A stretch of 64,000 bases of DNA from Chloroflexota bacterium (GTDB lineage Bacteria; Chloroflexota; Anaerolineae; Anaerolineales; UBA4823). The notes below the pieces were generated by a model. The model had not been told where the DNA came from. It made no database searches and was given only the letters and a program-made list of their open reading frames with translations. Shown one piece after another: positions 16,796-26,118 of the stretch (position 1 is its first letter; every line of letters starts with the position of its first letter). The stretch covers positions 62,001 to 126,000 of the forward strand of contig JAKQIM010000031.1 in NCBI GenBank assembly GCA_029557965.1. The letters are read 5' to 3'. The position numbers and the translations under genes were made by a program.

Positions 16796-18469
16796 TTAGC
16801 GACTGCCGCTGCGGGCAATCTCTTCCACGCGCACCAGCTCAGCAAAGACAACCAGGCGCGATAGATAGACTTCGCGCTCATCATCCCATTCGGTGCAGGT
16901 GACGAGTGTGATCTGCGATTTATCGGTCGCGGCAACCACAGAAAGGTCATCCTCTGACACAACCGCTTTATCGCGCACCTGGTACGTGTACATATTCTGC
17001 TCGGTATAGAGGATCACAAACTCGCCCGGAGGCAATTCCTCCAGGTAGCGGAACGGCCCATCGCCGCCACCCCGGATGGTGACATGCCCTGCCAGGCCTG
17101 TGTTGCTGCCCAGGCCCGGCCAAGAGGTATCGCCCATCCAGGCCACTTCCTGGCGCAAGCCAGCGATGAACCAACTCTGCCCATCATATGGCACATACTT
17201 GACCACCGTATCCAACATCAGGGCCGGGATGATGATGCGCGTGACCGGGCTGGTATCGGGCATGGGTTCGCCCGCCTGGGGCGTGACCAAGACCTCTGGC
17301 GTGGGAATGGGGAAGGAAGGCAGCGTTACGATCGGGGTTGCTTCAGGCGTAGAATAAATGTAGGCCGGCTGGTGATCTATCGGCGGAACGTTAGTGCCAT
17401 CAGCCTGGGTCAGTTGCGTGGCGGTTGCCGTGCCGGGGGCATACGCCTGCGGGGTTTCTGGGCTGGGAAGGAAGACCCCCGCCGCAGCCATCCCCGAAAC
17501 CACACCCACCACCAGCAGCAGCACGCCCACACCCAAGATCCATGTGGCACCTTGCTGTTTCTGGTTACGCGCCCACCAACCGTACAGCACCAACAAGCAG
17601 CCTAACACACCAGCCAGCAGGGCCTGGACCAACATCGTACGCTCGGCCTGGGCTGCCGCTTGGGCCGCCGCCCGCTCTTTCCAATCCAACGGCAACTCAC
17701 CCGTACCGGGCAATCCCGTGATAACCACCTTGTAGTTCACCGTGGCAGTCTTCGTCTTGTTCTGATCATAGGTCAGCGTCACCAGGTTGGTCAGCGTCTC
17801 TGTCTTCGTAAGACCGCTATTGACCTTGACCACCACCGTGATCGAAACCTCATCACCGCCAATAATGTCACCCAGGCTGACCGTTAAGGAGTGCGCCGAT
17901 TTGCTGACCACACCGCGTCCAGAGGTCACCGTTTCTACGTCAATGTAGGAGGGGAAGGAATCTGCCACCAGGGCACCGTAGATCGGGCCAGTGCCGTTGT
18001 TTTCTACGACAATTGTAAAGGTGAACCGTTCGCCGATCTTAGCTTCGGTGGGGGTAACCTTCACCGACATCGCAGGGTTTGACACCAAAGTGCCCGTAAC
18101 CGTCACGGTCGGCGTGCGGGTTGGGGTAGCCTGCGTGCCAGTGCGCGTCACCGTGGGCGTTTGAGTATTGGTTGAGGTGCCCGTGGGGGTCGGCGTGACC
18201 GTCAGCGTGGGCGTAGCCGTATCGGTAGAGGTTGCAGTAGGCGTGGGGGTTGGTGTCAGCTCAGCCGGAAGCAGCTTAAAGATAATGGGCAAGAACATAT
18301 CATTGGGGGCGTTTGGCGCCGCGCCTGCATGCTGCGGCGCGCTGGCACGGCTGGCCACAAAAGGATAGAACAGAAAAACGCCTGCCAATACAGCCAACAG
18401 GGTCCAAAAAAACAGCTTTTTCCATGAAAGCCTGGGAGAACCTGATCTGCCTGACTCTTGCATATTCAT
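16796..18469 (-). CDS. surface DUF11-type domain protein fused to a sortase, with internal LPGTG sorting signal
   Basis: A 557-residue membrane protein. Order: N-terminal TM (about 18-40), a Thr/Pro-rich stalk (about 70-130), a DUF11-like adhesive beta domain (about 135-245), an LPGTG motif at 253-257, TM segments at about 282-300 and 310-335, a second Pro-rich linker, and a sortase domain (about 405-550). The sortase triad is complete: His462 in AGHVT, Cys525 in TLVTC and Arg538 in YLSRLVV. Sortases cut LPxTG and attach surface proteins; here the motif plus following TM and basic residues is in the same chain. The start is the ATG at 18469; a TATAAT box lies 7 bases upstream. An upstream extension is rejected. 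Confidence 0.88.
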   Translation of the reverse strand: MNMQESGRSGSPRLSWKKLFFWTLLAVLAGVFLFYPFVASRASAPQHAGAAPNAPNDMFLPIIFKLLPAELTPTPTPTATSTDTATPTLTVTPTPTGTSTNTQTPTVTRTGTQATPTRTPTVTVTGTLVSNPAMSVKVTPTEAKIGERFTFTIVVENNGTGPIYGALVADSFPSYIDVETVTSGRGVVSKSAHSLTVSLGDIIGGDEVSITVVVKVNSGLTKTETLTNLVTLTYDQNKTKTATVNYKVVITGLPGTGELPLDWKERAAAQAAAQAERTMLVQALLAGVLGCLLVLYGWWARNQKQQGATWILGVGVLLLVVGVVSGMAAAGVFLPSPETPQAYAPGTATATQLTQADGTNVPPIDHQPAYIYSTPEATPIVTLPSFPIPTPEVLVTPQAGEPMPDTSPVTRIIIPALMLDTVVKYVPYDGQSWFIAGLRQEVAWMGDTSWPGLGSNTGLAGHVTIRGGGDGPFRYLEELPPGEFVILYTEQNMYTYQVRDKAVVSEDDLSVVAATDKSQITLVTCTEWDDEREVYLSRLVVFAELVRVEEIARSGSR

Positions 18470-18482
18470 GAAAGCTATTATA
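18470..18482 (-). promoter_or_regulatory. -10 box of the sortase fusion gene, probably leaderless
   Basis: On the minus strand TATAAT (18482-18477) is followed by seven bases and the ATG at 18469. No ribosome binding site is visible. The -35 is weak. Confidence 0.65.
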
Positions 18483-18537
18483 TCATTTCGAGGGATAACT
18501 CTTTGCAACTTTTGAGCCCGCTTTGCATCTAATATTT

Positions 18538-18747
18538 GTGACCAACCATCACCCACCTGCTCAGACCCGACTCACTACCGCCCTGCCGGCCCGTATCATT
18601 GACACAGCAGCCCAGGCAGTCAGCCTGCCGCGCGCAGGCGACCCCTGTCCGATCTGCCGCCAGGGCAGCCTGGATTACGATGGCCTGCTGAACTTATCCT
18701 GCCCGGCCTGTGGACAGGTTTTTGGCGACGGCGGCGGCTGCACCTGA
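18538..18747 (+). CDS. small zinc-ribbon protein
   Basis: A predicted 69-residue protein from a GTG at 18538; a TTG at 18523 is also possible. The C-terminal half has two CxxC pairs, CPIC and CPAC, 17 residues apart, forming a probable zinc ribbon, and it ends in a Gly-rich FGDGGGCT tail with one more Cys. I do not recognise a named family. It is transcribed away from the sortase gene and lies 60 bases before the selenoprotein gene. Coding is supported by the ordered Cys spacing, but the start is uncertain. Confidence 0.5.
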   Translation: MTNHHPPAQTRLTTALPARIIDTAAQAVSLPRAGDPCPICRQGSLDYDGLLNLSCPACGQVFGDGGGCT

Positions 18748-18807
18748 TAAGGACATCGGAGCCCCGGGTGGGCCACAGACTGAATTCAAATAGAAAAAGG
18801 AGTATTC

Positions 18808-19476
18808 ATGACCAATCCATTGCTCAACGACGAGGTTGCAGGCCAGGTAAAGGACGTTTTCTCAAACCAGCTCAAACACCCGGTAGAAATCTTGTTTTTT
18901 GGCTCAAAAGATAACTGCGAGATGTGCGACGAAACCCACAAACTGCTCGGAGAGGTTACGGCGCTCTCAGATAAGCTTCATTTAACAGTGTATGACCTGG
19001 ACGAAAACAAAAGCCTGGCCAGCCAGTACCATGTCAGCATGGCCCCCACCATCGTAGTTGCCGGGCGCGAGGGCGACCAGGTGACCGATTACGGCGTTCG
19101 TTTTGCCGGCATCCCCTCCGGCTATGAATTCAGCTCGCTCATCCAGGGGCTGATCCTGGTTTCGGGCCGCGACTCAGGGCTGGCCCCCGCAACTCGCCAG
19201 GCCCTAAAAGAGCTAAAAAAGCCTGTCCTCTTACAAGTTTTCGTCACCCCTACCTGACCCTACTGCCCGCGAGCCGTGGTGCTCGCTCATCAGCTTGCTG
19301 TTGAGAACCCCCTGGTGCAGGCCGAGATGGTCGAGGCAATGGAATTCCCCGACCTGGCAGACCGGCACAATGTCAGTGGTGTGCCGCAGACCACCATCAA
19401 TGACGGGGCCAATCATGTGGTGGGGGCAGTGCCCGAAGACCACCTGTTAGCTGAGATCCAAAAGATTTTGAATTGA
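18808..19476 (+). CDS. selenocysteine-containing glutaredoxin-like protein disulfide oxidoreductase (UPYC site)
   Basis: A 222-residue protein with two thioredoxin folds, read through an in-frame TGA at 19255-19257 (residue 150). The first fold has a CEMC site (Cys37, Cys40) after the strand EILFFGS. The second begins VLLQVFVTPT, then TGA, then PYCPRAVVLAHQLA, exactly where related proteins (Pyrococcus PDO, the N-terminal domain of AhpF) have CPYC. After TGA the same frame stays open for 72 codons and encodes the rest of the fold, including VSGVPQTTIN with its cis-Pro. A hairpin starts 11 bases past the TGA. Selenocysteine insertion is the best reading; a nonsense mutation at this Cys is the alternative. 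The ribosome binding site is AAAAAGGAG. A TTG-initiated osmC-like gene follows 13 bases downstream. Confidence 0.9.
19255..19286 (+). promoter_or_regulatory. putative bacterial SECIS element after the TGA codon
   Basis: The UGA codon (19255-19257) is followed by a perfect stem GCGAGC (19269-19274) and GCTCGC (19281-19286) with the six-base loop CGTGGT. The apical loop begins 17 bases after the UGA, inside the roughly 16-37 base range of bacterial SECIS hairpins, and contains the G-U that SelB usually recognises. The stem also codes for residues of the protein, as is normal in bacteria. Confidence 0.75.
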
Positions 19477-19489
19477 ACGGGAGGTACAG

Positions 19490-19909
19490 TTGAACGCAAA
19501 AGTTACCTGGAAAGGCCGGATGAGTTTTAGCGGCGAGGCCGATTCTGGCTTCAGTGTCCGCTTGGGCACTGACCCTGCCGTGGGCGGCGATAATGATGGC
19601 CCGCGCCCCATGGAGCTGATCGCCATAGGGTTAGCTGGCTGCACCGGCATGGATGTGATCTCAATCCTGCAGAAAAAACGCCAGGATGTGACCGATTTTG
19701 AGGTCAAGGTGCATGCAGAGCGAGCATCTGAGCATCCCAAAGTTTTCACCCAAATCGAGTTGGAGTACGTCATCACAGGCCGCAGCATCGATCCTGAAGC
19801 AGTGGAACGCGCCATTGAGCTTTCAGAGAACAAATACTGCCCAGCCCAGGCTATGCTGGCAAAAGCCAGCTCCATCACCCACCATTACACGATCGTCGAG
19901 ATCGAATGA
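19490..19909 (+). CDS. OsmC-family peroxiredoxin-like protein
   Basis: A 139-residue OsmC/Ohr fold protein. The two redox cysteines are present in LAGCTGMDV (about residue 45) and ENKYCPAQAML (about 113). OsmC/Ohr proteins reduce organic hydroperoxides using a dithiol donor. The start is TTG at 19490 with a strong GGGAGG ribosome binding site six bases upstream. It is 13 bases from the selenoprotein gene, which could plausibly supply reducing power; this is inferred from the operon only. Confidence 0.93.
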   Translation: MNAKVTWKGRMSFSGEADSGFSVRLGTDPAVGGDNDGPRPMELIAIGLAGCTGMDVISILQKKRQDVTDFEVKVHAERASEHPKVFTQIELEYVITGRSIDPEAVERAIELSENKYCPAQAMLAKASSITHHYTIVEIE

Positions 19910-22784: not shown

Positions 22785-24425
22785 CTAAGGCGAACTCGTC
22801 ACCTTATCCACGTAATCAATCGCCGGTTCGCAAGCCTCAGTCAGGTAATCTGAGATGTGCTCCCAATCCATAGTGGCCCTGGCGGCCCAAGACGTGTACA
22901 TGGCGTAAGAAATACAGCCTGGCCCGCTGTGGTAATTGGCCACCGTCAGTCGCCACAAATCCTCATAGCTGACTACTGAACCGGGGATCTTATTGGTAGC
23001 ATTGTAAACGATCTGCGCCACCTGTTCGCAGTTGGCCAACAGGGTGTGCGCAAACAAATTGATGCTGAAATCAGCATGCGCCAGGTCAATACCGGCCGGG
23101 CAGTCTGGGCAGTCCACCTTGGCTTCTAATGCCAGGGCGCCGCGCAAGATTGCCCGGCTTTCTGTATCCAGGTACACGTAACCGCGCGCACAGGCGTTTT
23201 CATCTAGTACCAGGGGGCAAAATTGGTTGAAGAAATCAGGATTCCATAATAACACAGCTTCTGCCCCATTATCGGTCAGTTGACCCAAGCCAAATTCATA
23301 CGGCACCCGAAACATGCCCGGCCAGAATTGGCTTTCTTGGGCAAAGATATTCTTCATCAACTGCGCCGGTACCCCGGTTTCATTGGCAACCTCAACCATC
23401 CTGGCATCAAAACGGTTCTGCCATTCTTCTACCAACGGCAGAGCAGCTTCTAAGCCGCAGGCATCTGAATAGCCATTCAAAAGCAGCCCGCCCCCCGCAC
23501 AAGCCGAAGCATCTACCAGGCCCTGGGCAATCAAACGTCCAGCCAGGTAATTGTAAGGCATATTGGTCGCAAGCAGCTCAGTTGCCTCAGGCGTGCGCAG
23601 CCAGTTTGGGGGACCTCCCACCGGCGGGAAGGCCTGCCACACCTGGGCGCAACTGGCTGTTTCACGGCCCTGCCACTGGCTGCTCAACACATCCACATAC
23701 CAGCCGCTTCCAGTAGGAGAAGCGCTCACCCCGCTGTCAATCACACGCACCTGGGCTGAATAATGCTCACTGGAATCACCGTAGCTAGAATCAGCCCAGA
23801 ATTCGAAAGTTGTCCCCACGTATGCCGTGGGTGAGAGCGGCACCTCGCAGGTTGGGGCAGTGCACCCATAAGGCACACCGTTGATCAGCACATTGATCGC
23901 CGTGATCTGCTCGTTTGGCAGCGGTTCCACGCCCGTCAACAACAAAGAAGGGATTTCTGCGCAGAAATTATCTATCGATGTCGGGTCGCAGCCCGTCAAC
24001 GTAACAGCCACCGAGGGCGAGGGCAAATCCACCAGGATGGTTCTCTCTGCGGGGGCATTGCTGACTGCATAGAGATACAATCCCTGGCAGTATGCCGTGT
24101 TGCCGTCAATAGCTTCCAACTCCCCGCATGCCGGGGTATTGATCCATTGATTGTAGATCGTCCCGCCACAATCGACGAAGATCTCATCATTCGTCGGCCA
24201 ACCTTCGTGGTCGATGAACACCTGGCACATCAGACTGCTGTCATACCAGCGCAGCAGCCACCATTCATAACGTGTGTAGTTAACAACGATCGATTCTTGG
24301 CGCACACCCGGCTCTGGCTCATCCCCCGTTCCGCCCGCAGCCCAGCCCGGCTCTGTCCTCACAAATATAGACGCGAGGAACAAGCTTGCTAGCAGTACCC
24401 TGACGAAGCGAGCCGGCTTATTCAT
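22785..24425 (-). CDS. secreted Cys-rich protein with a lytic-transglycosylase-like domain
   Basis: A 546-residue exported protein. A signal peptide spans about 1-30. The middle (about 30-250) is rich in Cys and beta structure with no family I recognise. The C-terminal part (about 335-530) looks like an SLT domain: VPAQLMKNIFAQESQFWPG provides the catalytic-type Glu in the ES motif, and EFGLGQLTDNG matches the GLMQ-like segment, with many added Cys. The start at 24425 is chosen because a promoter (TTGACA-17-TATCTT) ends 8 bases before it; an in-frame GTG at 24449 lies inside that promoter. Peptidoglycan cleavage is inferred. Confidence 0.75.
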   Translation of the reverse strand: MNKPARFVRVLLASLFLASIFVRTEPGWAAGGTGDEPEPGVRQESIVVNYTRYEWWLLRWYDSSLMCQVFIDHEGWPTNDEIFVDCGGTIYNQWINTPACGELEAIDGNTAYCQGLYLYAVSNAPAERTILVDLPSPSVAVTLTGCDPTSIDNFCAEIPSLLLTGVEPLPNEQITAINVLINGVPYGCTAPTCEVPLSPTAYVGTTFEFWADSSYGDSSEHYSAQVRVIDSGVSASPTGSGWYVDVLSSQWQGRETASCAQVWQAFPPVGGPPNWLRTPEATELLATNMPYNYLAGRLIAQGLVDASACAGGGLLLNGYSDACGLEAALPLVEEWQNRFDARMVEVANETGVPAQLMKNIFAQESQFWPGMFRVPYEFGLGQLTDNGAEAVLLWNPDFFNQFCPLVLDENACARGYVYLDTESRAILRGALALEAKVDCPDCPAGIDLAHADFSINLFAHTLLANCEQVAQIVYNATNKIPGSVVSYEDLWRLTVANYHSGPGCISYAMYTSWAARATMDWEHISDYLTEACEPAIDYVDKVTSSP

Positions 24426-24462
24426 CACGATAAAAGATATCATGTTCACCCAAGCTTGTCAA
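24426..24462 (-). promoter_or_regulatory. promoter of the SLT-like gene, leaderless
   Basis: On the minus strand TTGACA (24462-24457), 17-base spacer, TATCTT (24439-24434), then 8 bases to the ATG at 24425. There is no ribosome binding site. Confidence 0.75.
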
Positions 24463-24522: not shown

Positions 24523-26118
24523 ATGGCTGAGGTGATTTCCGTTCTGGTTGCCAGTGCAACACCCGGCTTTGGGGAGTTGATCCAGCAAACACTCGAAGAA
24601 ACCGGGCTGTATAAGGTGCTGCTGATAGATAGCGGCAGTGAAGCGCTTGACTGCATGCAGAGCATGCCTTTTTCCTTAGCCATCCTGGATAGTTTTTTAC
24701 CCGATGTTACCCTGCCCCAACTGATCTCTGAGTTCAAAAAGATATCCCCTGCAATTCACCTGGTGGTCATTCCACCCAATAACGACCCCTCAGACCCTGA
24801 GTTGGTACAGGCTGGCGTGCACGGCTTCCTCACAAAGCCATTTTACCTGCCCGACCTGCTTGATACCGTTTCTGAGGCCTTGCACCAGGGCTCAAGTGCA
24901 GAGACTCAAACGCCGCCCCAATTTGCGCCGCTCAACCACACACAAGGGTTGGATTGGCTGCAAGATGTCAGCCGCGCCGCCCAGCACCTCACTCGCCTTT
25001 CATTAGAATCATCTGCCCAAGCCGCCCTGATCGTACGCGACGGTCAGTTGTGGGCCTACGCCGGGCAGTTAGCCCAGCCTGCCGCCCAAGAAATGGCCGC
25101 TGTGGTGACCAGCTTCTGGGCCAACGATGCCGCTTCGCGGCCGGGTGGCCCCTCAGGAGATATGGTGCGCCTGGTGCGCCTGGATATCACTGCCGCCGAA
25201 TACATGTTGTATGCCACCGCCTTGGGCAAGGGTATGGTGTTGGCGCTGGCCTTTAATGCCGAAACCCCCTTCAGCAAGATCCGCACCCAAGCCAGCCAAT
25301 TGGCACGCGCCCTGGCTTCACCGCCCGGCGCGCACCCCGTCCAGCCTCGCCCCGATTTGGCCATCCCGCTTTCACAGCTTCCACCGCCGCCCAACATCAA
25401 GCCGCTATTGGAAGATGTTCCGCCGCCCTCCCCCTCCAGGCGGGTTCAAGAGCCTATCAGCCGCCCGCGCCCAGATCTTAATATCCAATTATCTGCCAGC
25501 CCGCAGGTCAGTGCCCAGGCCAAGATATTTCCCAGCACCGAAGCCGCCGCGCCGGTCATTGCCCCAGCACCAGCCCTCCCCCCCAAAAACCAGGTTGCAG
25601 TCGATATGCTGCCTGCCTCAGCCCTGCCCCAACCCCAGCCAGCCGCCTCGCCGGCGCCTGTCGAAGCCCAAGACGAGAGCCTTGAACTGCGCCCCATCTC
25701 GCCTGGGCTGCACAACCTGGTTTACGCCTGTGTGCTGATCCCTCGCCTGCCCCAACATTACCTGACGGGTGACCTGGGCGCCCGCCTGGGCGAATGGATC
25801 CCCCAGCTTTGCCTGGCTTATGGTTGGCGATTGGATCACATCGCCGTACGTCCTGACTATATTGAATGGGTGGCTGGCGTGGCACCAACCACGTCTCCCA
25901 GCTACCTGATGCGCGTCTTGCGCCAACAAACTTCACAGCGCATCTTTGCTGACTTCCCAAACCTCGGTCGCGAGAACCCCTCCGGTGACTTTTGGGCCCC
26001 GGGTTACCTGATCATGAGCAGCCCCCAGCCGCCTCCCGCACATGTGATCCGCGAGTTCATCCAACAGACCCGCCACCACCAGGGTGCCTCTCGGCCACCA
26101 GACCTGCCTCGCCTTTAA
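24523..26118 (+). CDS. receiver-roadblock protein with C-terminal inactive IS200/IS605 TnpA-like domain
   Basis: A 531-residue cytosolic protein in three parts. Residues 4-125 form a response-regulator receiver with Asp56 (LAILDSFLPD) and Lys in FLTKPF, but the acidic Mg-binding pair of strand one is missing (LVASATPG). Residues about 145-265 resemble a roadblock/LC7 domain. After a Pro-rich linker (about 270-390), residues about 398-520 follow the Y1 transposase pattern: YACVLIPRL, a LGEWIPQLCLAYGWRLDHI helix-strand, RPDYIEWVA where TnpA has PDHVHLLV, SPSYLMRVLRQQTSQRIF, and IREFIQQTR where TnpA has the catalytic Tyr. Both His and the Tyr are replaced, so it should bind nucleic acid without cutting it. 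It is followed six bases later by polA. Confidence 0.82.
   Translation: MAEVISVLVASATPGFGELIQQTLEETGLYKVLLIDSGSEALDCMQSMPFSLAILDSFLPDVTLPQLISEFKKISPAIHLVVIPPNNDPSDPELVQAGVHGFLTKPFYLPDLLDTVSEALHQGSSAETQTPPQFAPLNHTQGLDWLQDVSRAAQHLTRLSLESSAQAALIVRDGQLWAYAGQLAQPAAQEMAAVVTSFWANDAASRPGGPSGDMVRLVRLDITAAEYMLYATALGKGMVLALAFNAETPFSKIRTQASQLARALASPPGAHPVQPRPDLAIPLSQLPPPPNIKPLLEDVPPPSPSRRVQEPISRPRPDLNIQLSASPQVSAQAKIFPSTEAAAPVIAPAPALPPKNQVAVDMLPASALPQPQPAASPAPVEAQDESLELRPISPGLHNLVYACVLIPRLPQHYLTGDLGARLGEWIPQLCLAYGWRLDHIAVRPDYIEWVAGVAPTTSPSYLMRVLRQQTSQRIFADFPNLGRENPSGDFWAPGYLIMSSPQPPPAHVIREFIQQTRHHQGASRPPDLPRL

Follow-up and report, generated by a model that had tools for sequence, protein, structure and literature searches.

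The gene at positions 18808–19476 of the window (the whole 64,000-nucleotide stretch of DNA analysed) almost certainly specifies a complete redox enzyme that carries selenocysteine (Sec) at its second active site, and on comparative sequence evidence is a real selenoprotein. We consider it highly probable that the product is a cytoplasmic protein disulfide oxidoreductase (PDO) of two thioredoxin folds, similar to the N-terminal part of AhpF, in which the C-terminal CPYC motif has Sec where its attacking Cys would stand and UGA codon 150 would be decoded by SelB and tRNA-Sec via a hairpin.

18808–19476, forward strand: predicted Sec-containing protein disulfide oxidoreductase, 222 amino acids, TIGR02187; ATG start, stop TGA at 19474–19476.
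18916–18927, forward strand: first thioredoxin-fold active site, CEMC, residues 37–40.
19255–19266, forward strand: second thioredoxin-fold active site, UPYC, residues 150–153; TGA 19255–19257 (codon 150) read as Sec; Cys or TGA in every relative.
19269–19286, forward strand: putative bacterial SECIS hairpin; 6-bp stem GCGAGC/GCUCGC, loop CGUGGU.

A ribosome-binding-like sequence, AAAAAGGAGT (18794–18803), lies 5' of the ATG at 18808, from which 149 codons lead to the TGA at 19255–19257 and 72 more to the terminal TGA at 19474–19476; reading the first TGA as Sec gives a protein of 222 residues, MTNPLL...FFGSKDNCEMC...VFVTPT-U-PYCPRAV...KILN. The initial annotation had described this frame, its coordinates, the in-frame TGA, the PYCPRAV continuation and the CEMC motif exactly as we found them. 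A standard gene caller ended the gene at TGA 19255–19257. Scanning of the 64-kb window for TGA-interrupted frames gave 11 candidates outside large genes, the UPYC gene included, and none of the other 10 had a redox motif adjoining the TGA.

The read-through protein matched the NCBIfam model TIGR02187 (PDO_seleno_TRX) at 275 bits (curated cut-off 185 bits) over residues 8–219 and model positions 2–208 of 209, and thus belongs to this family across its length. The nearest solved structures were the PDOs of Pyrococcus (the best match, P. furiosus 1a8l, E 1e-43) and Aquifex (2ywm, 2ayt), which share with the window protein two thioredoxin folds, a full-length alignment and active sites at matching places; those are, however, proteins of thermophiles with Cys in the C-terminal site, where the window protein would have Sec. 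Each fold carries a CxxC/UxxC site when aligned by sequence to 1a8l (CEMC, residues 37–40; UPYC, residues 150–153), with codon 150 falling on the first Cys of the second motif in solved PDOs (CPYC in 1a8l). The AhpF N-terminal domain is a homologous two-fold domain (TIGR03140, E 2e-23, N-terminal 196 positions), but the window protein is without the flavoprotein reductase part of AhpF, and identity with AhpF itself was rejected, the score being 82.6 bits against a cut-off of 502.9 with only the N-terminal domain matched and the FAD-containing reductase part missing. Identity as a glutaredoxin was likewise rejected (TIGR02181, 23.5 bits against a cut-off of 90). The earlier label of ‘glutaredoxin-like’ is therefore loosely right at most: the Pfam glutaredoxin model PF00462 exceeded its own cut-off (33.6 vs 22.9) on the C-terminal fold only, while the protein belongs to the two-domain PDO/AhpF-N-terminal family, for which Sec-containing protein disulfide oxidoreductase, not glutaredoxin, is the best name.

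Relatives were collected from genome collections (41) and matches were present in 207 of 396 genomes of the class; codon 150 was readable in 89 loci, counting the window gene (L057). The alignment against homologues that the initial annotation had proposed did reveal Cys at this codon, with TGC or TGT in 56 loci and TGA in the remaining 33, and no other in-frame stop occurred in any of the 89, so that the TGA is neither a sequencing error nor the mark of a pseudogene. The TGA forms came from independent assemblies and were 41–72% identical to the window protein. Between the window gene and ten TGA relatives, identity was 63–79% after the TGA and 53–64% before it, and dN was much lower than dS in all comparisons that allowed an estimate of dS, a pattern that supports purifying selection acting downstream of the TGA.

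Bacterial SECIS elements follow a distance rule, and the hairpin previously claimed at SECIS distance is indeed present, its stem beginning 11 nt after the UGA (arms 19269–19274 and 19281–19286, loop 19275–19280), and is conserved with TGA across relatives. Single-sequence folding showed that the window hairpin is not exceptionally stable (z −1.26), and we therefore relied on comparison. The six-pair stem was intact at the exact place in 21 of 33 TGA forms vs 2 of 56 Cys forms and, among relatives at ≥54% identity, in 14 of 15 TGA vs 1 of 32 Cys forms, as expected of a bacterial selenoprotein gene with a SECIS hairpin immediately downstream of its UGA. Several TGA forms without the window-type stem had another stable, shorter-loop hairpin within that stretch (e.g. 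CCGGGC/GCCUGG, CCAGGC/GCCUGG and CAGGGC/GCCCUG), and three others (L100, L101, L104) had only weak hairpins in the place tested. In an alignment of 18 rows picked from the six-nucleotide-loop class, a selection that favours structure, 99.1% of cells were paired and shifted partners scored much lower; at one pair, both stem arms had changed together in two sequences, G-C being replaced by A-U and by C-G. Because the chosen rows favour structure, the contrast between TGA and Cys forms carries more weight. From the tree, six independent Sec/Cys pairs with good support could be drawn, with the link between stem and Sec as expected in a mean of 3.7 and the opposite in 0, although six pairs are too few for significance and the result weakened when the hairpin was scored more loosely.

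The window belongs to a metagenome-type genome bin (2.16 Mb, 68 contigs, 56% complete, 1% contaminated) that holds tRNA-Sec (73.9 bits, cut-off 47; ARAGORN agrees, anticodon tca), selB (327.5 bits, cut-off 242), selA (542.9 bits, cut-off 268) and selD (359.1 bits, cut-off 125, with an in-frame TGA of its own). All four lie on contigs other than that of the window, the initial annotation having supposed the machinery to be elsewhere; their absence from the window is therefore uninformative, and the lack of SelB and tRNA-Sec, which would have spoken against Sec, did not materialise. The genome thus has the complete set of SelA, SelB, SelD and tRNA-Sec expected for a bacterial selenoprotein. Among the class genomes listed as holding a TGA form, selA was found in 22 of 24, the other two being 67% and 70% complete; since almost the whole class has SelA (318 of 396 genomes), this co-occurrence is consistent with Sec and not discriminating.

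Other genes with an in-frame TGA were also seen in the bin. In selD (L014, G000:C59, about position 1530), the TGA lies in the catalytic motif SSCAG-U-ASK, and selenophosphate synthetase is thus itself a selenoprotein. A second TGA-interrupted redox gene (L107, G000:C18:5902–6267, reverse strand) encodes a peroxiredoxin-like protein (...VVLIFNRGFV-U-PFCQRH...) whose nearest NCBIfam model, SelL-related redox protein, scored 86 bits, below the cut-off of 120; it is probably another selenoprotein of known kind. Formate dehydrogenase, a common selenoprotein, was not found in the 56%-complete bin.

Taken at face value, the TGA could be a true stop that truncates the protein to a single domain, or it could reflect pseudogene decay or a sequencing error in a single codon; the standard gene caller does end there, and the terminal stop is also TGA. 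The recurrence of TGA at codon 150 in 33 loci as divergent as 41–72% identity with no other stop, the purifying selection beyond it and the complete Sec machinery of the genome all argue against this, as does the fact that the first GTG past the TGA (19276) would yield a fragment without an active-site motif, and we regard a stop, pseudogene or error as very improbable and, judging from the alignments, ruled out for practical purposes. Some read-through of UGA by near-cognate tRNAs occurs in general, and insertion of Cys, Trp or another residue by such decoding would be compatible with the sequence alone. We consider this just as improbable, given that codon 150 alternates solely between TGA and Cys codons, that a SECIS-like hairpin accompanies the TGA and that tRNA-Sec, SelA, SelB and SelD are present. 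Decoding as Sec, as the initial annotation had proposed, is favoured by the Cys homologues, the TGA in 32 other loci, the downstream purifying selection, the TGA-linked hairpin and the machinery together.

In the proposed mechanism, host SelB and tRNA-Sec would decode UGA 150, directed by the hairpin right after it. On the model of PDOs already characterised, thiol transfer would take place mainly at the C-terminal site, where the Sec selenolate would attack substrate disulfides and the Se–S bond would then be resolved by Cys153; the CEMC site would in turn relay electrons drawn from an NAD(P)H-dependent reductase, a route that we infer. In Sulfolobus, the PDO (SsPDO) replaces thioredoxin between thioredoxin reductase and the Bcp peroxiredoxins, and thiol transfer hinges on its C-terminal site (PMC7465337). 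The 56%-complete bin had no clear match to thioredoxin reductase, with a sub-threshold partial match of 62.9 bits vs 343. Candidate substrates would be the neighbouring OsmC and peroxiredoxin-type peroxidases, and the best inference is a reducing function toward peroxidases of the OsmC or peroxiredoxin type.

19490–19909, forward strand: OsmC-family protein, about 14 nt downstream of the PDO gene.

The OsmC gene is probably in the same operon as the PDO gene, and in most closer relatives OsmC follows PDO directly or within about 0.6–1.3 kb, with genes for a YruB-type glutaredoxin, a NifX/MrpORP-like protein and a membrane-anchored TlpA/ResA-like thioredoxin intervening and, in several, a rhodanese after OsmC. 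The gene set of this downstream thiol-redox cluster varies by locus (L016, L023, L024, L044, L028), and its NifX/MrpORP-like protein has a His-rich stretch. Such an arrangement leaves some room for the protein being not a general PDO but an electron carrier dedicated to a local thiol-redox module, supplying OsmC and, in relatives, also the TlpA/ResA-like thioredoxin. We think this the less likely role: the window retains PDO and OsmC alone of the cluster, more distant relatives had no OsmC neighbour within the flanks read, and TlpA is extracytoplasmic, so that direct electron uptake from a cytoplasmic PDO would be impossible. Elsewhere in the window, a 586-residue frame with a DUF11 repeat and a C-terminal sortase domain (16796–18556, reverse strand), a 554-residue ORF without a Pfam or NCBIfam match (22785–24449, reverse strand) and a frame that joins a response-regulator receiver domain at its N terminus to an IS200-like (Y1) transposase domain at its C terminus (24523–26118, forward strand) were observed.

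The Sec interpretation is right but not new, and adds no new kind of selenoprotein; the novelty implied by the initial annotation does not hold, the family having been documented as using Sec since 2006. A survey of bacterial selenoproteins in that year listed a ‘Homolog of AhpF, amino-terminal domain’ with two Sec members, in Carboxydothermus and Symbiobacterium, together with three Chloroflexi selenoproteins whose families it did not name (PMC1794560), and reviews of 2022 and 2026 enter the family as TIGR02187, UxxC, ABB15282.1 (PMC9312934, PMC13188914). A PDO_seleno_TRX-type selenoprotein has also been reported from Asgard archaea (PMC11227280), and the NCBI model name itself contains ‘seleno’. 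Sec-containing homologues of the AhpF N-terminal domain had been described in the initial annotation as coming from metagenomes; they are indeed reported, but from sequenced genomes too and not from metagenomes alone. The window protein resembles Carboxydothermus hydrogenoformans ABB15282.1 and the Symbiobacterium thermophilum and Asgard members in exceeding the TIGR02187 curated cut-off, in its UxxC motif and in having one Sec per protein; unlike those, the window gene and its close TGA relatives are hosted by Anaerolineae (Chloroflexota), for which no description of the TIGR02187 selenoprotein family was found in the papers searched. What is new here is the Anaerolineae members, with repeated Sec/Cys switches and a set of neighbouring thiol-redox genes (OsmC, TlpA-like, glutaredoxin-like, rhodanese) that is conserved.

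On a tree built from 86 proteins, 13 Sec/Cys changes were required, at least six of them forced by well-supported branches; Sec and Cys forms have switched at least six times in Anaerolineae. A more speculative proposal, to which we give a low probability, is that Anaerolineae present a natural experiment in which a PDO has passed repeatedly between Sec and Cys at one catalytic codon with a SECIS-type hairpin coming and going alongside, and in which the Sec form may pass electrons to the UPFC peroxiredoxin-like selenoprotein encoded elsewhere in the genome, as a Sec-to-Sec chain. Annotating the read-through mends an error that would split one redox enzyme and lose its active site, and extends a known selenoprotein family in a phylum for which the papers searched gave no account of it. 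With Sec and Cys forms so densely mixed in one class, the benefit and cost of Sec at a single catalytic position could be compared, and these PDO forms would likewise allow a comparative study of how a SECIS hairpin arises and is lost.
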